Below, one piece after another: positions 9,272 through 42,024 of a stretch of DNA of 64,000 nucleotides. The first letter of the stretch is position 1; every line of letters begins with the position of its first letter. Made by a program: the position numbers and the translations under genes. The DNA is from Psychromonas aquimarina ATCC BAA-1526. Lineage in GTDB: Bacteria; Pseudomonadota; Gammaproteobacteria; Enterobacterales; Psychromonadaceae. The stretch lies in assembly GCF_000428725.1 (NCBI RefSeq), contig NZ_KE386792.1, positions 116,234 to 180,233 of the forward strand, written 5' to 3'. Below the pieces are notes generated by a model that was not told the DNA's origin, made no database searches, and saw only the letters and a program-made list of their open reading frames with translations.

Positions 9272-10012
9272 ATGCACAAAACAATAATTGCTCACCGGGG
9301 AATGTCGTCACTTGCACCGGAAAATACCTTAGCGGCTTTCTCTTTATGTAAAGAGCACGGCGTGAAATGGTTCGAATGCGATGTAGATATTCTCCAGGAC
9401 GGTACTCTGGTTATTTCCCATGATGACACCCTGGACCGTTGTACGGATAAAAGCGGACGATTATGTGATATTACCCGTAATGACCTGGAAAGTATCGATG
9501 CGGGAAGCTGGTTTGGTGATGCTTTCACGGGGGAAAGAATACCAACACTGCAGCAGCTGATCTGCTTAGCAAATGACCAGCAGCTCAACCTCAATATTGA
9601 AATAAAATCATTGCCTGCCGGTGCAGAATTAAGTCAGCTTTTAATCAGTAATCTAATCTCAGAGCTGCAGGCACTTAATTCAGCAAGAGAGTTGATTGTT
9701 TCCAGCTTCAATCATCAGGTTCTTGCTGAGTTTAAACGACGCAGCCCGAACACAAGCGTCGCCTGTTTATTTGAAAGCCATACTTTGGGCCATGACTGGC
9801 AGACAATTATTGAATACTGCCGGGCCGATTATATTCATCCGCAAAACGAAGGATTAACAAAGGAAATGGTCAGGGAATTTAAAGACTCCGGTATTAAGGT
9901 GAACGTCTGGACGGTTAATGATTTAGCCAGGGCGAATGAACTGTTTAACTGGGGAGTTGACGGAATATGCACAGATATCGCCCAGCAGTTTCCATCGAAA
10001 TACAGAATGTAA
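9272..10012 (+). CDS. ugpQ: Cytoplasmic glycerophosphodiester phosphodiesterase UgpQ
   Basis: 246 residues, the usual length of UgpQ. It hydrolyses glycerophosphodiesters to glycerol 3-phosphate plus alcohol. The GDPD signature is intact: IAHRGMSSLAPENT with the catalytic histidine, FECDVDILQDG, VISHDDTLDRCT with the second histidine, and NIEIKS. There is no signal peptide, so the protein is cytoplasmic. It has no ugp transporter genes beside it. Its last 190 bp are repeated in decayed form at 11146-11340, on the far side of the PEP-CTERM gene. Confidence 0.95.
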   Translation: MHKTIIAHRGMSSLAPENTLAAFSLCKEHGVKWFECDVDILQDGTLVISHDDTLDRCTDKSGRLCDITRNDLESIDAGSWFGDAFTGERIPTLQQLICLANDQQLNLNIEIKSLPAGAELSQLLISNLISELQALNSARELIVSSFNHQVLAEFKRRSPNTSVACLFESHTLGHDWQTIIEYCRADYIHPQNEGLTKEMVREFKDSGIKVNVWTVNDLARANELFNWGVDGICTDIAQQFPSKYRM

Positions 10013-10156
10013 AAAGGTCATATTATGAGTTTAGTAAAAAAGTGGGCTTCACCTGCAAAAACAGTGTTACGCCTTTTTTTCTGTTGTGATGTCCGGGCAG
10101 ATTATTTATTACGCATTTGAAGTGAAATTGAGCAGTGATTTATATTTTGTAGTTCG

Positions 10157-24320: not shown

Positions 24321-26807
24321 ATGAAATATAAGAACAGACTGAATCGACTTATTCTCTCCCTTGCTGTCATCAGCCTGCTGCAGGGCTGCGCAATGTCCAA
24401 AATTACAACGGTACATTACGAAGTTCAAAGCGGAAGAAACGAGAAAGCTGTAAAGCTCTTTGAACAAGAGATCGGATCCTATGAAAACTGGGTACCGGAA
24501 GATAAGTTCATGGAAAACCCCGCGCACGTATGGGGACTGATTGACGTCTGCAATTCTTATTACGAGCTTGGAAACATGTCCAAGGCCGAAGAGTGTGCTG
24601 AAGCTTATGCGGAACTCTTTTTAGAAAAAATACCTGAAACTGAAAAAGGGTCATGGAACCGCAACTATTTTGAATTCCGTTACCACAGGATGCTCCTGTC
24701 TCTTTACTTAGAGCTGGGGAATTATGAAAAAGCCCGCTACCATGCGGAAAAAGGCATTGAACTTTACATCACAGAAATTGGACGCCTTACACTAACAATG
24801 ACAGGCAGCATCAACAGCCAAGCCAGCTTTATGGCAAACGCCGCGATTGCGTTTGCAAAAACTGGAAATCAAAAGCGGGCAAAAGAGTTACTTGCCGACA
24901 TCCCTGCTATAAACAGATGGAAAAGCATAGATACTGCAGCGACTAAAAAGCAGAAAAATGCTCATCAGGCTCGAGGGTACATTGCAATTGGTGACTACGA
25001 GAATGCCAGAACAGCACTAGAAAGTGATCTAGGCATAGCCTCATATATTCCACGAAGTATTATATTTATCCAGTCGCTGGGGCTGTCGGAAGTTTTAGGA
25101 ACGGGCGAAGAGTTGACAGATCCGCTCAACCTGGATGAGTTGTTTTTAACCTCTAAAATGTACCTTCATACGGGCGAATATGAAAAAGCAAAAATCGGTT
25201 ACGATGCCTTGCTCAACAACTCTCATAAAGTATCAGGCATGGGTCCTTCCCGTGAATCGCTCGACCTGAGCAAGCGTCCGAGTTTTTATTATGTCCTTTT
25301 TCATGACCGGGGCAAAATAGCGCTGCACGACGGCGACCAAGAACTGGCGGTATCTTCTTTCAGACAGGCCTTGGATATCATCGAGAAGCAGCGGGCAACT
25401 ATCCACACGGAAAGTTCCAAAATAGGATTTGTGGGAAACAAGCAGGATGTCTATCGGGATATGACGGCCCTGTTAATTGAAATGGGCCGCTTTGAAGAGG
25501 CCTTCGCCATAGCCGAGCGGGCCAAGGCTCGAGCCCTGGTGGATATGCTGGCTTCAAAGAGTGATTTAAACGGTGGGGAGCGTGCTGACACGAAAGAGCT
25601 CACCGGGCTACTCCGGGAGGTGGATGACCTGGAGCTCAAAGCGCAGCTTGTTGTCACGGGAAATAAAGCTGAACAGCAGTCAGCACAACGAAGCGTAGAA
25701 CTGAAGCAAAAACAGATCCTGCAGACAGATCCTGAATTCTCATCCCTTGTTGCAGTAAGCCCCCCGGATGTGAAAGCCATTCAGGCCCTGCTTGCCGAAA
25801 ACGAAACGATGATCGAATACTACGGCGATGAAACCGAGCTCTTTGCCTTTGTGGTCAGCAGCAGCCAGATCCGAGGCGTAAAGCTGGGGCCCGTTGATAT
25901 CAAAGAAAAGGTATCCAGGTTCCGCACCTGGATTCAGGCTCCTCCGGCAGAAGTCCGAGGCCTCAAGCTCAGCAAACCCAAAGCGCCGGTTTCCCATGAA
26001 AAAAAAACGGGTGAAGAGCTTTACAATGCTCTCATCGCCCCGCTTTCTAAATACATTAAAAATGCAAACCTCACCATAGTTCCTCACGGTGCCCTGCACT
26101 ACCTGCCGTTCAACGCCCTCTCCGACGGCAGCACATACCTCATTGATCACTACCGCATCAGGGTCCTGCCCAGCGCCAGTGTCATGCCATTCCTGAAAAA
26201 TAAAAAGCAGAATTATCAGGGCAAACTACTCGCACTCGGGAACCCGGATCTGGACAACCCCGCCCTCGACCTTCCCGGAGCGGAAGAAGAATCCCGGGCC
26301 ATCACCAGAATGGTTCCCAAAGCCAGCCTCTACACTGGGAAACAGGCCACCGAAACCTTAGCCAAAGCAGAAGGAAGCCGTTACAAGTACGTTCACTTTG
26401 CTCTGCACGGGACCTTTGACGCGGAAAAACCTCTGACGTCGGGTCTTCTCCTAGCCTCAGACGCACAAAACGACGGCATCCTGACCGTTGCAGAACTTTA
26501 CACTATGAATATCCCGGCAGATCTGGTCACATTGTCGGCCTGTGAAACAGCTCTGGGAAAAATCGCCAACGGAGATGACGTGGTGGGCTTTACCCGGGGA
26601 TTCCTCTATGCCGGAACTCAGTCCATTGTATCCACTCTCTGGAAGGTGGATGACCAGGCCACATCAATACTGATCCAGAAGTTTTACCGGGAACTTGAGA
26701 AAACCGATAAACGCCGCGCCCTGAGAAATGCTCAGCGTTATGTAAAAGATAAGATCAATGACCACCCGTATTACTGGGCAGCCTTCCAACTGACTGGGAA
26801 TATATAG
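24321..26807 (+). CDS. TPR-CHAT domain lipoprotein
   Basis: 828 residues. Lipoprotein signal peptide with lipobox LLQGC (C23), a long alpha-helical region of TPR-like repeats (about 50-430, for example YELGNMSKAEECAEAYAELF and LHTGEYEKAKIGYDALL), a coiled-coil stretch (about 430-490), and a C-terminal CHAT caspase-like protease domain (about 560-828). The catalytic pair is present: H696 in HFALHG and C741 in LSACETA. CHAT proteins are caspase relatives whose known bacterial members cut specific partners. No partner gene is adjacent. The second half is richer in G+C than the flanks, and repeat copies lie on both sides, which suggests transfer. Substrate unknown. Confidence 0.88.
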   Translation: MKYKNRLNRLILSLAVISLLQGCAMSKITTVHYEVQSGRNEKAVKLFEQEIGSYENWVPEDKFMENPAHVWGLIDVCNSYYELGNMSKAEECAEAYAELFLEKIPETEKGSWNRNYFEFRYHRMLLSLYLELGNYEKARYHAEKGIELYITEIGRLTLTMTGSINSQASFMANAAIAFAKTGNQKRAKELLADIPAINRWKSIDTAATKKQKNAHQARGYIAIGDYENARTALESDLGIASYIPRSIIFIQSLGLSEVLGTGEELTDPLNLDELFLTSKMYLHTGEYEKAKIGYDALLNNSHKVSGMGPSRESLDLSKRPSFYYVLFHDRGKIALHDGDQELAVSSFRQALDIIEKQRATIHTESSKIGFVGNKQDVYRDMTALLIEMGRFEEAFAIAERAKARALVDMLASKSDLNGGERADTKELTGLLREVDDLELKAQLVVTGNKAEQQSAQRSVELKQKQILQTDPEFSSLVAVSPPDVKAIQALLAENETMIEYYGDETELFAFVVSSSQIRGVKLGPVDIKEKVSRFRTWIQAPPAEVRGLKLSKPKAPVSHEKKTGEELYNALIAPLSKYIKNANLTIVPHGALHYLPFNALSDGSTYLIDHYRIRVLPSASVMPFLKNKKQNYQGKLLALGNPDLDNPALDLPGAEEESRAITRMVPKASLYTGKQATETLAKAEGSRYKYVHFALHGTFDAEKPLTSGLLLASDAQNDGILTVAELYTMNIPADLVTLSACETALGKIANGDDVVGFTRGFLYAGTQSIVSTLWKVDDQATSILIQKFYRELEKTDKRRALRNAQRYVKDKINDHPYYWAAFQLTGNI

Positions 26808-32703: not shown

Positions 32704-34224
32704 TTGAGCGACAATAAAGAATTCAGCGCCCTACTCGCACAAAATTTAGGCATCACGCATTTTCTAATCGGCAGTCAGCGCTGGCATATTAAAGAGCTGC
32801 TCAGCGTGCAGAACATCTTATTGTGCAATGCCCCTTCATTAAAAGAAGGCATTTTATGGTGGAGTAAATCCCTCTCTTTGTTTGATCGAACGCTTTACGT
32901 TGAAAGTAAAAACAGCAGCGGTTTTTTATCGCTAACCTTCCGTACTCACGGCAATACCTCTCTGCCTAGTTTTACTTACTCGGCAGCACAAAACTTACTA
33001 GCCCTGCTTGAGCGCTTTACTGAATTTCACCATAGCTGGATCCAGACAAAATCACATAACTTTCCTCAACTAAGAAATGAGTTTAGTAACGGGCTGCAGA
33101 TCCATTTTGATTTACAGGAAGTTAATACAGCTGCGGCCCCGGAGGCAAACCTGTTCGAGCTTGCCAGGCAGTTTTTTGCACTGCTGCAGAAGCAGAGCAT
33201 TGAAAAAGAGGAGCTGACCTACCGCTTAAAAAAACAGATCCGTAATGATATTGCTTCGCCGTTACGTTTACCTGATTTAGCCAGGAGTTTAGGCTTGTCT
33301 GCAAGAACCCTGCAGCGAAGACTGCAGCGAAGACTGCAGCGAAGACTGCAGCGAAGACTGCAGCGAAGACTGCAGCGAAGACTGCAGGATAAACAGTTAA
33401 ATTTTTCTACTTTGATTGAAAATGAAAAAAAGACCGTTGCTCTGCGCCTGCTCGCTGATACCGATTTAAACAGCAGTTCCATTGCGGCCCGCCTTGGTTA
33501 TGATGATTCATCTAATTTCCATCGAGCCTTTCGTAAGTGGTATGCATTCACTCCGCAAAACTACCGCGAGCAGTGCATCAATAACCGCATCCTGCAGAAG
33601 CACAATCCTATCCGCCTGCATTACGCCACCTGGAATGACGATGCCCGTCAAAACAAGCAGGGACAAGTCTGGCTTGAAGTAGATAATATTGCATTTGAAA
33701 AAAGCGTAAGCGTCGAATGTCAGGACCGGGACGGGGTGTGGCGCCATTATCCGGCTTTTTTTGAGTATTTTTTAAGTAAAGGAACAGAGCTCTGGTCTAC
33801 TGCTAACTTACCTGTTGCCGGCCCGCTGAGATTCAAATTATGTTATGAAATCAACGGCAGTAAGTTCATAAATGATAACCACCAGCATAACTATGTAGTG
33901 AATGAAGGTATTTTAATCGGCCACCCCTTAATCGTACTTCCCACCATGATTATGGTGCATGAAGGCGGCGGATTCCGCATGGTTATCGAACTTGTCTGTA
34001 AGAGAGCAGATATAGATAAAATCGACTGCATTATTGATCATCACAACGGCGATGCTATAAAAATGCACAAAGTCAGTGAGAAAAACAATTATGTTTCCTG
34101 GTCGCTGTCGGCCTATTTAGAAAGTCTTCCCAAACGCTGTTTTTTTAAATTACACAGCTTAGATCAACAAGAGCTTTTTTGTGATAACTATCAGAATGGT
34201 TACATTTTCACTGCACCTAGATGA
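32704..34224 (+). CDS. AraC-type regulator with LQRR-expanded HTH and C-terminal CBM21-like region
   Basis: 506 residues from a TTG start (AGG site 9 nt upstream; a stop lies 12 codons upstream and no ATG intervenes). Order: N-terminal Arabinose_bd-like domain (about 10-150), AraC HTH domain (about 175-295: LRLPDLARSLGLSARTLQRR and SSSIAARLGYDDSSNFHRAFRKW), then a C-terminal region (about 305-506) absent from usual AraC proteins. Its part around GPLRFKLCYEINGSKF and INDNHQHNY resembles the end of CBM21/CBM53 starch-binding modules (CYxVNGxxYWDNNxGxNY). Six LQRR units (203-226) enlarge the first HTH. The gene lies 124 bp upstream of a GH13 amylase gene, its likely target. Domain similarity was judged by eye. 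Confidence 0.78.
   Translation: MSDNKEFSALLAQNLGITHFLIGSQRWHIKELLSVQNILLCNAPSLKEGILWWSKSLSLFDRTLYVESKNSSGFLSLTFRTHGNTSLPSFTYSAAQNLLALLERFTEFHHSWIQTKSHNFPQLRNEFSNGLQIHFDLQEVNTAAAPEANLFELARQFFALLQKQSIEKEELTYRLKKQIRNDIASPLRLPDLARSLGLSARTLQRRLQRRLQRRLQRRLQRRLQRRLQDKQLNFSTLIENEKKTVALRLLADTDLNSSSIAARLGYDDSSNFHRAFRKWYAFTPQNYREQCINNRILQKHNPIRLHYATWNDDARQNKQGQVWLEVDNIAFEKSVSVECQDRDGVWRHYPAFFEYFLSKGTELWSTANLPVAGPLRFKLCYEINGSKFINDNHQHNYVVNEGILIGHPLIVLPTMIMVHEGGGFRMVIELVCKRADIDKIDCIIDHHNGDAIKMHKVSEKNNYVSWSLSAYLESLPKRCFFKLHSLDQQELFCDNYQNGYIFTAPR
33310..33387 (+). repeat. 12-bp tandem repeat inside the AraC HTH
   Basis: CTGCAGCGAAGA occurs six times head to tail with no mismatch (33310-33381), followed by a partial unit CTGCAG. 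Each unit encodes LQRR, so copy-number change keeps the frame but adds or removes 4 residues at the first HTH motif. Confidence 0.98.
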
Positions 34225-34347
34225 TGTGCATCTCAAATAAAATCGAGACTGACACAATCTGACCATTATTATGGCGTAAAGTGACACTCAATTTTTCTCC
34301 TGCCTCCTTTATTGTCTAAATCCATACACAATCAAGGAGAGAATGAA

Positions 34348-37074
34348 ATGCCGATTAACTCGTCTAATAAACTTAAAATACTATCATTATCCATTGCTCT
34401 GGCGCTTACCGGCTGTAACTCTGGAGACAACAGCAACAGTGCGGTCAGTGTCAGTGATGATAGCGGCAATAACAGCAGCATCAATGATAACAGTGACAAT
34501 AATAACGGCGGCAGTACCGATAACGGCACGCATGTGGCGTCACCTGACTGGCAGGATCAGATCATCTATTTCTTAATGATTGACCGTTTTAACGACGGCA
34601 ACAGCCAGCTCAATGCTCAAGGCCAGGATGAATACGACCCGACCTCAGATAAAAAATTCAGCGGCGGTGACCTGCAGGGGGTTAATGATCAGTTAAGCTA
34701 CATTCAAAATTTAGGCGCAACATCGGTCTGGATCACGCCGCCGGTTGCTAACCAGTGGTGGGATTCAGAGCAGAATTACGGCGGCTATCACGGTTACTGG
34801 GCACGTGATTTCCAGCAGGTAGATGAGCACTTTGGTGATTTACAAAGCTACCAGTCCCTGGCTCAAGAGCTGCACAGCCGCAATATGTTCCTTATTCAGG
34901 ATATTGTCACCAACCATGTGGGCAACTATTTTACTTACGACAAACCCTATGAATATGATCCGCAAAAACCTTGTACCGGTTTTAGAGTCATCCCGGACGC
35001 ACTGCCGCAGGGGCAGACTCTGCCTTACCCGCTTAACCAGATTGAATGCCGAAGCGACGGCAGCGGCACTTACCACTGGACAGCAAGCATTACCGACCAC
35101 AATGATCCCGTTCAGGAAAAAACACGGCAGCTGTCTGATCTTGATGATCTCAATACTTCAGATGCTGAAGTACGCGCTTATTTAAAAGAAAGTTACCGCA
35201 AATGGATCCGCGAAGTTGGTGTGGACGCATTTAGAATCGACACCGTAAAATTCGTTGAACATGATTTCTGGAATGATTTTCTGCACAGTGAAGACGGCAT
35301 TTTAGCGCAGGCTAAACAGACCGGCAGACAGGATTTCTTAACCTTTGGCGAGGTATTTGAAACCTCGACACCTTATAACACTGAAGGTGAGGAAAAAATG
35401 CTCACTTATATAGGTGAAAACGGCACTCCGGCTCAGCTTACCGCTGTACTTAACTTCCCGCTGCAGGCGACTATGACGCGTGTATTTGCTTCAGGGCAGC
35501 CCACAGATTACCTTCGTTACAGGCTTGAACGTATGATGGAGATGTTCCCTAACCCGTACATTATGCCTAACTTTATCGATAACCATGATATGCCGCGTTT
35601 CTTATCCCAGGGCAGTCAGCAGGATATGCAGCAGGCTCTGATCACCATGATGACAGTTCCAGGTATTCCAGTCATTTACCAGGGCACCGAACAAGCAATG
35701 ACCGCCAGCCGCGATGCTATGTTTGCCGGGGGATATCGCGAAGACGGCAAGTCAGTGGACTCTTTTGACAGCAGCAGCGGTATGTATCAGTTTATCCAGA
35801 CGTTAGCCAGACTGCGTACTGAAAACCGCGTCTTAACTCACGGTGAACTGAAAGTGCTCAGCAGCGATAAAGCCGGCGCCGGTATATTCAGTTTCATCCG
35901 CCGCTTAGACGATCAAGAAGTGCTGGTGGTAATGAATACTTCATCTTCGCCTATGCTGCTTAATCAGCTGAATGTGGAGCAAGAAGCAGGCACTATTTTC
36001 GAAAATAAAATCCAGTCAAACTGGGCTCAGGCGCCGCAAACCCTAAACGTAAACAGCCAGGGAGAAATCAGCCTGGAGATGGCGCCTAAATCAGCCGTTG
36101 TCTACTTCAAAACAAATCAGACTGGTGATTTTGAGCAGGCAGGTACAGAAGTAGAGTTAGACGGCAGCTGGGATAATATTACCATCACGCAAGATACTCT
36201 TATTACCGGTAATGCGGCGCCGGGCGACACCTTGAAACTGGTTGTTGACGGTAACTTAGAAACCGCTAAAGATATTCACGTGGATGACTCTGGAAACTGG
36301 TCGACTTCACTTTTAATCCGTCACTTTACCATAGGTAAACAGCAGCACAGATTTGCAGTCTACTCAGCTGAAAAGAAAACGGCTACAAAAGATATTCTCT
36401 TCACTTCTGATCTGTCCTGGGCAGATACAGCGGATCAAGTCATTGATGATTCCGGCGATGCTCAAGACGGTGCCGGCGGCCTGAACGGTTCATACTCCCT
36501 GCCGACCGATCCGACGTTTGACAAAACCAACAGTCAGCTGGCTGTTGATAAAGCGGAATTGTTCTCAGTCGGCAGTAATGTCCGTCTGAAACTGACCATG
36601 AACAATATAACTAACAGCTGGCTGCCGCCGAACGGCTTTGACCATGTAGGCTTTTCGATCTTCATCGGCCTGCCGGCTGAAGCTTCACAGGGATTAACGA
36701 CACTGCCGAAAATCAATGCGCTGATGCCGAGCGGTACGTGGAATAGAAACGCAGTCGTATTCGGCTGGCAAAGTTCGATTTACAATACCCAGGGAGCCGA
36801 TGCGCAGACGTGGGGAGAAAGTGTCGCGCCGGCACCAGTGGTCACAGTAGATAAAGACAACAAAGCAATTTATTTAGACTTTGCCAGCGATGCACTTGGC
36901 CGTCCAGATACGCTGAACGGGATTAGTTTCTACATCACTACCTGGGACTTAGACGGACTGTCTGCGGCCTATCGTCCCCTGCAAGCTGAAAAAGGCCCAT
37001 GGAGTTTCTCCGGCGGCGATAGCGGTGAAGCAAAAATCTGGGATGATTTACTTGTAATCACGCTAAGCGAATAA
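34348..37074 (+). CDS. GH13 alpha-amylase-type lipoprotein with glucodextranase-like C-terminus
   Basis: About 908 residues from ATG 34348 (AAGGAGAG upstream; an in-frame TTG at 34312 would put 12 extra residues ahead of the signal peptide). Lipobox LTGC (C23) and a long Asn/Ser/Asp-rich linker precede the GH13 barrel. All four conserved regions are seen: DIVTNHVG, GVDAFRIDTVKF (nucleophile Asp), FGEVFE (acid Glu) and NFIDNHDMPRF (third Asp). After the barrel come an all-beta domain and a C-terminal region (about 690-908, from SWADTADQVIDDSGD) like the glucodextranase C-terminal binding module. It probably degrades starch or glycogen-type glucans at the cell surface. Confidence 0.93.
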   Translation: MPINSSNKLKILSLSIALALTGCNSGDNSNSAVSVSDDSGNNSSINDNSDNNNGGSTDNGTHVASPDWQDQIIYFLMIDRFNDGNSQLNAQGQDEYDPTSDKKFSGGDLQGVNDQLSYIQNLGATSVWITPPVANQWWDSEQNYGGYHGYWARDFQQVDEHFGDLQSYQSLAQELHSRNMFLIQDIVTNHVGNYFTYDKPYEYDPQKPCTGFRVIPDALPQGQTLPYPLNQIECRSDGSGTYHWTASITDHNDPVQEKTRQLSDLDDLNTSDAEVRAYLKESYRKWIREVGVDAFRIDTVKFVEHDFWNDFLHSEDGILAQAKQTGRQDFLTFGEVFETSTPYNTEGEEKMLTYIGENGTPAQLTAVLNFPLQATMTRVFASGQPTDYLRYRLERMMEMFPNPYIMPNFIDNHDMPRFLSQGSQQDMQQALITMMTVPGIPVIYQGTEQAMTASRDAMFAGGYREDGKSVDSFDSSSGMYQFIQTLARLRTENRVLTHGELKVLSSDKAGAGIFSFIRRLDDQEVLVVMNTSSSPMLLNQLNVEQEAGTIFENKIQSNWAQAPQTLNVNSQGEISLEMAPKSAVVYFKTNQTGDFEQAGTEVELDGSWDNITITQDTLITGNAAPGDTLKLVVDGNLETAKDIHVDDSGNWSTSLLIRHFTIGKQQHRFAVYSAEKKTATKDILFTSDLSWADTADQVIDDSGDAQDGAGGLNGSYSLPTDPTFDKTNSQLAVDKAELFSVGSNVRLKLTMNNITNSWLPPNGFDHVGFSIFIGLPAEASQGLTTLPKINALMPSGTWNRNAVVFGWQSSIYNTQGADAQTWGESVAPAPVVTVDKDNKAIYLDFASDALGRPDTLNGISFYITTWDLDGLSAAYRPLQAEKGPWSFSGGDSGEAKIWDDLLVITLSE

Positions 37075-39393: not shown

Positions 39394-40644
39394 TTAATCT
39401 TCATTGATTATCAGCTGATTACCTCCCTGCTGTTTGGCCTGAATAAGTGCTTGATCAGCTCCTTTTAGCAGGCTCTGCAGCGTTTTTGTTTCCTTTACCA
39501 GCTTTCCGCCCAGACTAATGCTTATATTTATTTGTTTTCCTGAAAACTCTATAGAGTGTTTACTAATGTGCTGCAGCAGGAGTTTTAGAGCTAACTTTAT
39601 AACCTGCAGCTCTTTATTTTTGATAAAAACCGCAAACTCCGCCCCGTTCAGTCGTGCTGTTATATCCGTTGAAAACTGCGTTTTTAAAATATTCGCAATT
39701 TCAATAAGTAGTTTGCGGCCTAACTTATAACCATATTTATCATTTAATTCCTGGAATTTATCAATATGCAGAATAGCCAATAATAATACCGAAGGCTGCT
39801 CATATTCAGTATTGAGCATGATTTTAGTCTGTTCAAGAAAGCAGCGGCGGTTAAGCAAGGCTGTAAAGTCATCACTATTTGCTAATTTTTCCATCTCTTC
39901 TACATGACTTAACCTTTCAATGTTCTGCAGAATTCGACAATAGAACTCTTCAGAAGAGAAAGGTTTTTTTAGATAATCATCAGCGCCGTTTTTAATGAAA
40001 CGCTCAGCTTGAAAATGATGTTCAGCATCAGTTAAGCCCATAATAATCAATTCGTTTGCAGCGTATTTACGGCGAATTTGCTGTACTAACTGCACCCCGT
40101 TTGTAATCGGCATCTCCTGTTCAACGATAACCATCTTAATATCACTGCGCTGATCTAATACGGTGAGCGCTTCAGCAGCGTTCGCCGTACAGTAAACAGT
40201 GAAATTACGACGCTTTAATAAAAGTGCTAATTTATTTCTGGCCGCAGTGGAGTTGTCCACCAGTAATATACCTATATTACTGTTAGTTAATTGACCGCTT
40301 AATATTCGTAACAGATAGTGATAGGCCTGCGCATTTTCTTTCATTATGTAGTCAATGACCGGCAGGTTTAACACCTTGCGGTGCGTCTTCTCATCCATTC
40401 TGCCGGTCATAATGATACTCGGCATACCGCGCTCTATCACATAGGGGATAACTTCACCGTTAGGTGCATCGGGCAGGTTAAAATCCACTGTTGCCACAAA
40501 GAACTTCTGCTCATGAGCTAACAGACTTTTCACTTTAGCGAATGATTCAGCAATGGTAACCTGATAACCAAGGGAGTCGCCAAGGTGTTTAATAACCGAA
40601 GCAATAGATTTATTGTCTTCAATAACAAGCAGCTGTTTTGACAT
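39394..40644 (-). CDS. REC-REC-degenerate GGDEF response regulator (copy 1)
   Basis: 416 residues. First receiver domain (1-115) with acidic pair E9-D10 and phospho-acceptor D54. Second receiver (about 122-240) with D130, conserved K226, but glutamate E175 where the phospho-acceptor aspartate should be, a natural phospho-mimic. C-terminal GGDEF-fold domain (about 250-416) with N333-G-A-E-F337 in place of GGDEF, so cyclase activity is doubtful and a binding role is more likely. No kinase gene is adjacent. It is the downstream member of a tandem duplication with 40807-42024, including the leader DNA. Confidence 0.88.
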   Translation of the reverse strand: MSKQLLVIEDNKSIASVIKHLGDSLGYQVTIAESFAKVKSLLAHEQKFFVATVDFNLPDAPNGEVIPYVIERGMPSIIMTGRMDEKTHRKVLNLPVIDYIMKENAQAYHYLLRILSGQLTNSNIGILLVDNSTAARNKLALLLKRRNFTVYCTANAAEALTVLDQRSDIKMVIVEQEMPITNGVQLVQQIRRKYAANELIIMGLTDAEHHFQAERFIKNGADDYLKKPFSSEEFYCRILQNIERLSHVEEMEKLANSDDFTALLNRRCFLEQTKIMLNTEYEQPSVLLLAILHIDKFQELNDKYGYKLGRKLLIEIANILKTQFSTDITARLNGAEFAVFIKNKELQVIKLALKLLLQHISKHSIEFSGKQINISISLGGKLVKETKTLQSLLKGADQALIQAKQQGGNQLIINED

Positions 40645-40679
40645 ATGCCCTCATTAAATTCAGCTTTTTAAAATACTAT

Positions 40680-40790
40680 TATTTGATAAGCAGAATAAAA
40701 TTTAGTACAACATTGAAAATAAGGACAGCAGCAGTTAGTACAATATTTACAAATTGAGAACCATACAAAATATTTAGTGTTCATTAATAA
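40680..40790. repeat. Duplicated leader region of the REC-REC-GGDEF genes (copy 1)
   Basis: CATAAAATTTAGTACAACAT-type sequence, AATAAGGACAGCA and CAGTTAGT recur at 42063-42160. The two genes were thus duplicated together with about 140 bp of upstream DNA, and each probably has its own promoter. Confidence 0.85.
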
Positions 40791-40806
40791 CCAGCTGATT
40801 GCCTCC

Positions 40807-42024
40807 CTACTGTTTGGCCTGAATAAGCGCTTGATCTGCTCCTTTAAGCAGACTTTGCAGCGTTTTTGTTTCATTTACCAGCTTTCCACCCAGACTAATG
40901 GTTATATCTATCTGTTTTTTTGAAAACTCGATGGGATGCCGGCTGATATACTGCTGTAAGGATTGTAGAGCTAACTTTATGACTTCCAGCTCCTTGTCTT
41001 TGATAAAAACGGCAAACTCAGCACCGTTAAGGCGTGCGGTTAGTTCTGTTGCAAACTGCATTTTTAAAATATTAGCAATTTCAATAAGTATTTTATTACC
41101 TAGCTTATAACCATATTTATCATTTAACTCTTTGAATTTATCAATATGCAGAATGACCAGCAGTTGTACCGGGGGCTGTTCGTATTCTACTTTGAGCACC
41201 ATTTTAGTCTGCTCAAGGAAATGACGGCGGTTAGACAAAGCAGTTAAGTCATCGCTATTGGCTAATTTTTCTATCTCTTCTATGTAACTTAACCGTTCGA
41301 TATTCTGCATAATACGGCAGTAGAACTCTTCAGAAGAGAAAGGCTTTTTTAAATAATCATCAGCCCCGTTTTTAATAAAACGCTCAGCTTGAAAATTATG
41401 ATTACCATCCGTTAAGCCCATAACAATCAGTTCGTTGGCGGCATATTTTCTGCGGATTTTTTGTACTAACTGCACTCCGTTTATAATAGGCATCTCCTGC
41501 TCTGTGATAACCATTTTAATATCACAGCGCTGATCTAATATGGTGAGTGCTTCAGAGGCATTACCTGCACAGTAAACAGTGAAGTTGCGGCGTTTTAACA
41601 AAAGTGCCAGTTGATTTCTTGATGCGCTGAAATTATCAACCAGTAATATGCCGATTTTATTATTGGTTAACTGACCGCTTAATATGCGTAACAGATAGTG
41701 ATAGGCCTGCGCATTTTCTTTAATGATGTAGTCAATAACCGGCAGATTTAACACCTTGCGGTGCATCTTTTCATCCATCCTGCCGGTCATAATGATACTC
41801 GGCATACCACGCTCTATCACATAGGGAATAACTTCGCCGTTAGGCGCATCGGGCAGATTAATATCCACTGTTGCCACAAAGAACTTCTGCTCTTGCTCTA
41901 ACAGGCTTTTAACTTTAGCAAAAGATTCAGCAATGGTAACCTGATAGCCAAGCGAGTCGCCAAGGTGTTTAATAACCGAAGCAATCGATTTATTATCTTC
42001 AATAATAAGCAGCTGTTTTGACAT
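40807..42024 (-). CDS. REC-REC-degenerate GGDEF response regulator (copy 2, C-terminally shortened)
   Basis: 405 residues, a close paralogue of the protein at 39394-40644 along its whole length. It has the same features: D54 in the first receiver, glutamate in the second (MVITEQEMPI) and NGAEF in the GGDEF domain. It ends at ALIQAKQ by a TAG where the paralogue has a CAG codon. The lost tail is still legible in frame (GGNQLVINEH), so a single nonsense change removed the last 11 or so residues. The tail lies beyond the core fold, so the protein may still work. Confidence 0.87.
   Translation of the reverse strand: MSKQLLIIEDNKSIASVIKHLGDSLGYQVTIAESFAKVKSLLEQEQKFFVATVDINLPDAPNGEVIPYVIERGMPSIIMTGRMDEKMHRKVLNLPVIDYIIKENAQAYHYLLRILSGQLTNNKIGILLVDNFSASRNQLALLLKRRNFTVYCAGNASEALTILDQRCDIKMVITEQEMPIINGVQLVQKIRRKYAANELIVMGLTDGNHNFQAERFIKNGADDYLKKPFSSEEFYCRIMQNIERLSYIEEIEKLANSDDLTALSNRRHFLEQTKMVLKVEYEQPPVQLLVILHIDKFKELNDKYGYKLGNKILIEIANILKMQFATELTARLNGAEFAVFIKDKELEVIKLALQSLQQYISRHPIEFSKKQIDITISLGGKLVNETKTLQSLLKGADQALIQAKQ

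Follow-up and report, generated by a model that had tools for sequence, protein, structure and literature searches.

The window analysed here, a stretch of 64,000 nucleotides from Psychromonas aquimarina ATCC BAA-1526, carries a gene for an AraC-type regulator with a gene for a GH13 alpha-amylase lipoprotein behind it (Table 1). The regulator matches the Pfam families HTH_18 (3.1e-16, 59.9 bits against a cut-off of 33.6) and HTH_AraC (3.9e-10, 40 bits against 26.6), and the PDB matches of this domain include VirS (2e-9) and an AraC-family regulator (4.1e-8). With a double helix-turn-helix (HTH) above the Pfam cut-off, the 506-aa protein is on its domain sequence an AraC/XylS member, and the same double HTH was matched in all seven homologues scanned. 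The reading frame and its TTG start are kept in P. ossibalaenae, whose protein is the closest named homologue (84% over the best segment, 88% over the alignment), and in a remnant of the gene in another genome (G001). About 205 residues follow the AraC domain and lie outside the AraC fold, which bears out an earlier note on this DNA that had set residues ~305-506 apart from that fold.

The downstream neighbour matches the Pfam Alpha-amylase family (3.1e-52) and has, by eye, a lipobox, LTGC. The ORF list starts it at TTG 34312, inside the predicted promoter described below; we take ATG 34348, behind AAGGAG, to be the likelier start. Elsewhere in the window are two tandem response-regulator/GGDEF genes (39394-42024, minus strand; 86% identical over 405 aa), where the P. 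ossibalaenae locus (L007) has one such ORF, and a gene for an 828-aa lipoprotein-like TPR-CHAT protein (24321-26807, plus strand; CHAT 2.4e-73).

Table 1. Features of the regulator-amylase locus, in window positions
Feature	Position	Strand	Basis
AraC-type regulator with C-terminal CBM21-type module, 506 aa, TTG start	32704..34224	+	ORF, Pfam
N-terminal region, residues 1-180, possible degenerate Arabinose_bd-like domain	32704..33243	+	PF12625 match in 1/7 homologues, 2.3e-4
AraC DNA-binding domain, two HTH motifs, residues 181-295	33244..33588	+	Pfam, PDB matches
Perfect 12-bp tandem array CTGCAGCGAAGA x6.5 inside HTH1, adding 20 residues (RRLQ x5)	33310..33387	+	Repeat analysis
CBM21-type module, residues ~302-404, site II N328, F331, E332, K333, F353, E362 conserved	33607..33915	+	Profile searches, alignments
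C-terminal region, residues 405-506; position matches second module of secreted tandem CBM21 proteins	33916..34221	+	Whole-C-terminus alignment
Predicted operator TGACACAATCTGACCATTATTATGGCGTAAAGTGACAC: two TGRC boxes 22 bp apart, proximal unit TGGC-N6-TGACAC	34250..34287	+	Cross-species alignment, pattern searches
Predicted -10 element TATTGT	34310..34315	+	Position common to 8/8 subfamily A loci
GH13 alpha-amylase lipoprotein, C-terminal Glucodextran_C module, likely start ATG 34348	34348..37074	+	ORF, Pfam, AAGGAG at 34334

The C-terminal module of the regulator

To classify the residues behind the AraC domain, we compared single sequences with Pfam. CBM_21 (PF03370) matched the whole window protein at 4.4e-4 (20.9 bits) and its C-terminus alone at 23.4 bits, both under the 28.9-bit cut-off. 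At E up to 1, six of the seven full-length proteins matched CBM_21 (best 8.5e-5). Four of five C-termini scanned alone did so at E up to 0.1, at which the C-terminus of the G042 protein gave no CBM_21 match; the four besides that of the window thus comprise three scores of 22.4 bits or less and one without a match. Since single sequences fall under the cut-off, we class the module as divergent CBM21-type and not as a formal Pfam member. CBM53 and CBM25 were set aside: at E up to 0.1, CBM_21 was the sole one of these families that the window C-terminus matched.

Profile searches against the PDB (177,635 sequences) gave a clearer answer. RoCBM21, the Rhizopus CBM21 (2djm), was the top phmmer match of the window C-terminus (0.0056) and is the closest solved sequence to the module. 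A profile built from seven homologues of the module matched 2djm at 1.8e-6 and the glycogen-targeting subunits PPP1R3C and PPP1R3B at ~2e-4. With eleven homologues these values became 2.3e-7 for 2djm and, for PPP1R3C/3B, 5.7e-5 (7qf7) and 8.1e-5 (2eef). An unrelated immunoglobulin-like fold that resembles CBM21 by chance would accord with the weak single-sequence scores and with the first unrelated chain in the eleven-homologue search, an antibody at E 0.016; against it, the best four PDB matches of that profile are all CBM21 proteins, fungal and animal, and in a profile comparison three secreted proteins from the order of the window species (L040, L041, and L042) align with the module over 105 columns at a probability of 99.1. 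We give this explanation hardly any weight: on the PDB profile matches and the comparison with the secreted proteins we rejected a chance likeness, and residues ~302-404 are, at the level of sequence, CBM21-like beyond chance.

The secreted proteins belong to a set (L037-L043) of open frames of 244-398 aa with CBM21-like modules. CBM_21 scores above the Pfam cut-off in the two that were scanned, L037 and L040, neither of which has a catalytic domain. Unlike the regulator, L037-L043 carry apparent N-terminal signal peptides (by eye), and L037 and L040 have no DNA-binding domain. Four of the set (L037, L038, L039, and L043) match both halves of the regulator C-terminus, the whole of which aligns with them over 198 columns at a probability of 96.6. 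Taken alone, residues 405-506 found no CBM match in the PDB search and reached an hhalign probability of 1.8. The proposal that the C-terminus is of CBM21 type is supported for residues ~302-404, on the PDB profile matches; residues 405-506, which match no CBM when searched alone but are spanned by the alignment of the whole C-terminus, are at most a candidate second module.

We then asked which sugar-contacting residues the module keeps. PMC3398936 describes RoCBM21 with a site I of W47, Y83, and Y94 and a site II of Y32, F58, and Y67 together with N29, K34, and E68; there, site II is the most important for soluble glucans and site I is linked to insoluble and long-chain glucan. In PMC9582199, the dominant site of PTG is site II (N177, F180, E181, and K182, plus Y203 and D214), and site I also diverges. 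Window residues were assigned to these positions through the 7- and 11-homologue profile alignments. N177, F180, E181, and K182 of PTG correspond to window N328, F331, E332, and K333, and K34, F58, and E68 of RoCBM21 are retained in the window, with Y32 as F. Across the 11 homologues, F331, K333, F353, and E362 are invariant, N328 is kept in ten and E332 in nine; the Y67 position (T, I, or R) is aromatic in none. As for site I, the W47 position is W in 10/11, the Y83 position (K, R, or T) is never aromatic, and neither is the Y94 position (by eye), where the preceding residue is F or Y in 11/11. By this alignment, site II is largely retained and site I is partly lost, which points to a soluble alpha-glucan as the predicted ligand of the module.

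The four residues shared with PTG site II would also suit another role, in which CBM21 parks the regulator on intracellular glycogen in the way that PPP1R3 subunits tether PP1; full stores would titrate it off DNA, and falling stores would free it to activate the secreted amylase. The glycogen synthase family PF08323 is present in all 11 genomes searched (the ten with a regulator and G001), yet it is near universal in the genus (21/24 genomes) and therefore does not discriminate, so we rejected it as support for glycogen sensing. The loss of two site I aromatics fits soluble ligands at least as well. We consider such a tether unlikely.

Between the window and P. ossibalaenae, dN/dS came to 0.052 in the module (residues ~302-404) and 0.059 in the HTH domain; the N-terminus had 0.10 and the last part 0.106, all rough values from a simple counting method at dS 0.5-1.0. 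When each of the 10 other homologues was compared with the window, the module equalled or exceeded the HTH domain in conservation in 8, the exceptions being G016 and G005. Sensing in AraC regulators is usually done by the N-terminal domain, and here too the signal may be read by the N-terminal region, with a C-terminal module that is structural only (a dimer or polymerase contact) and binds no glucan. The degenerate last 100 residues and the degenerate part of site I would agree with this. Against it stand the purifying selection on the module, the retained site II residues, and the low conservation of the N-terminal region, which ranks with the most variable parts of the protein (15-37% identity to the window in the eight loci outside Psychromonas). 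A purely structural module thus strikes us as quite improbable.

The amylase neighbour and the putative operator

A profile of seven homologues recovered full-length relatives of the regulator in 10 of the 394 genomes of the order, at 11 loci, with the best 3 candidates scored per genome. G254 accounts for the extra locus: it has two regulator-amylase pairs (L111 and L112), one from each of two subfamilies. Apart from the window itself, no full-length relative was found in a wider sample of the class (369 genomes; E up to 1e-20, best 4 candidates per genome) or of the phylum (234 genomes; E up to 1e-40, best 6 candidates per genome); these two samples overlap, and both include the window genome and part of the order. 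In G001 (L049, about 9714-10052), a truncated 5' remnant covering residues 2-114 (81% identical) runs into unrelated sequence, and no amylase in that genome reached the E threshold of 1e-150.

At all 11 loci, a GH13 amylase lies directly downstream of the regulator on the same strand. The link to a starch-degrading gene that the earlier note had drawn from one locus holds throughout: the search that it proposed, for homologues with AraC and CBM domains beside GH13 genes, found the pairing at every locus, and homologues lacking a tie to glucan genes, which would have told against its reading had they been common, did not turn up among the 11. Searching from the amylase side (E up to 1e-150) returned 17 of the 394 genomes, namely all 10 with a regulator and 7 others, in which the amylase is 39-48% identical. 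The order-wide profile search found no full-length regulator in these 7 genomes, and the 261 ORFs in the 12.5 kb around each of their amylases gave no match to the whole-protein or module 1 profile at E up to 1, in a search where the window copy, included as a control, was matched. One of these 7 genomes, G062, has a Trans_reg_C regulator with C-terminal TPRs (L168 3272-4765) two genes upstream of the related amylase that lacks an AraC-CBM partner.

Aligning the gaps between araC and the amylase gene, in three Psychromonas and, separately, in four g10 genomes, brought out a shared block. A half-site, TGGCR-N5-TGACAC, was defined on these seven loci and then turned up at the corresponding position in G254, a genome that had played no part in defining it. 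It occurs at all eight loci of subfamily A, where its sole match lies between the genes, and each of the eight has a TGRC box 22 bp upstream of it; the full element, TGRC-N18-TGGCR-N5-TGACAC, is thus present between the genes at 8 of the 11 loci. The strict half-site was not found upstream of araC in the eight subfamily A loci, regions that we aligned within each genus group only. It was likewise absent from the three subfamily B loci (G130, G042, and the second copy in G254) and from the amylase loci of the 7 regulator-less genomes; the G001 locus has one match, elsewhere in the locus. In the whole window genome, the half-site matches once, at this locus (reversed control, 6). The full element, a pattern itself defined on regulator loci, has 16 matches in the 394 genomes, 8 at regulator loci and 8 elsewhere; the latter look like chance, because the reversed control gives 14.

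Two further candidates did not hold up. First, a clear direct repeat within single loci was rejected, since the best 22-bp repeat reached significance in just one of the 8 subfamily A loci. Second, we could propose no operator for subfamily B, where the half-site is missing and the 22-bp repeats are unconvincing (per-locus shuffle p 0.56, 0.015, and 0.24). Between loci of different groups, 17 of 19 pairs were in register, and 8 of the 19 had a shuffle p < 0.01; a first run on 10 such pairs had put 9 in register and 5 at p < 0.01. The case for a predicted operator thus rests on conservation between species and not on the similarity of repeats within a locus.

Activators of the AraC family can bind at sites that abut the promoter. 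In all eight subfamily A loci, a TA(T/C)(T/C)(G/C)T hexamer (TATTGT, TATCGT, TACTGT, or TATTCT) starts 22 bp downstream of the operator, and with a 17-bp spacer the -35 would touch the operator's last base. Lying immediately before the putative -10, the element appears to have the position of an AraC-family activator site.

A 12-bp repeat array in the first HTH

The window regulator departs from its relatives at one point. Its HTH1 reads LSARTLQRRLQ(RRLQ)x5DKQLNF, where P. ossibalaenae has LSARTLQRRLQDKQLNF; the underlying array is 78 bp of identical 12-bp units that keep the reading frame, against 1.5 copies of the unit in P. ossibalaenae. The insert is absent from the alignment of all 10 other homologues. 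A 24-mer of two units occurs in 1 of 24 genus genomes, at this site only, and the array has the highest copy number of the 37 arrays found in 464 kb of the window genome, the next having 4.2 copies at a 75% match. Copy number therefore differs between species, with one genome compared per species. The array is a perfect short tandem repeat within a gene, as is looked for in contingency loci; it could contract and expand by slippage. The array may also stem from an assembly error, although it is shorter than common reads. This array, which the earlier note did not mention, bears on whether the window regulator works normally.

Going by the AraC family, the repeat should fall in the first recognition helix, in its C-terminal half; the 20 added residues (10 of them arginines) would then either be looped out or lengthen the helix. 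The insert probably weakens or changes DNA binding, judging from its position, and with such an array in the HTH1 of this strain alone, binding may be altered, off, or switchable by the repeat. PMC5399793 describes four-residue helical steps that alter DNA reading in type I HsdS subunits; those steps change the spacing that is read, and the RRLQ steps in the window HTH1 may be comparable.

The insert may leave the window copy inactive, five extra RRLQ units breaking DNA binding in a way that slippage could reverse or that is en route to loss. Identical units in a kept frame, an insert seen in none of the 10 other homologues, and the loss of the gene in one lineage, where G001 retains the 5' remnant only, all lean this way. 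Relaxed selection on the window copy was not borne out: its branch has 11 amino-acid changes (N-terminus 7, HTH 2, CBM-1 0, last part 2), and that of P. ossibalaenae has 14 (8, 2, 1, and 3). Because branch changes are not raised and the operator is intact, decay is not visible; yet the units are identical, and an expansion that recent would leave no expected trace in substitutions. We regard a regulator switched off in this strain as a real possibility, though a doubtful one.

A candidate glucan-sensing activator

We think it fairly probable, on the sequence evidence above, that the protein is dedicated to activating one target, the amylase gene directly downstream, and that it reads alpha-glucan through its CBM21-type module. 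The AraC domain would bind the direct-repeat-like element at 34250-34287 and contact RNA polymerase at the abutting promoter. The module, to judge from its conserved residues, would bind soluble alpha-glucan (maltodextrin on its way into the cell, or else glycogen) via site II, and binding would turn the protein into an activator; glucan would therefore induce an enzyme that releases more glucan. A bolder version, in which the factor measures the alpha-glucan polymer directly, through a type of module that in animals brings a phosphatase to glycogen, and is also tuned by the 12-bp copy number in its recognition helix, as a rheostat or an on/off switch, may be entertained by analogy, but we hold it to be unlikely.

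AraC and MelR are examples of AraC/XylS activators whose repeat-like sites abut the promoter of an adjacent catabolic gene. The regulator resembles such one-component activators in its two-HTH domain and in a predicted repeat-like site abutting the promoter of the neighbouring catabolic gene; it differs in that its proposed sensor is of CBM21 type and lies C-terminal to the DNA-binding domain. Rob-like AraC proteins likewise have a partner domain C-terminal to the AraC domain, but in the Rob type that domain is not known to be a carbohydrate-binding module. Like the PPP1R3 subunits of PP1 (PTG, GL, and GM), the regulator is intracellular and has a CBM21 with matching site II N, F, E, and K, but here the module is joined to a bacterial DNA-binding domain and not to a phosphatase anchor. 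RoCBM21 differs at the Y83, Y94, and Y67 positions, which are non-aromatic in the regulator, and the regulator is not secreted.

The earlier note knew of no described regulator of this build. We found none either among the literature matches listed, mostly open access and judged by title or the start of the abstract, and the excerpts of PMC2386152 and PMC10766802 mention no fusion of a regulator with a CBM.

If glucan binding proves true, polysaccharide sensing would take place within a single DNA-binding protein, with neither a kinase nor a small-molecule intermediate. Glycogen-type targeting by CBM21 would then be found in bacterial gene control as well as in eukaryotic enzyme scaffolds. A system made up of a single regulator, a single predicted site, and a single target is easily tested and could serve as a part for starch-responsive expression. 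Whether four-residue steps in an AraC recognition helix may tune or switch a regulator is a question for which the repeat array, in turn, offers a test case.
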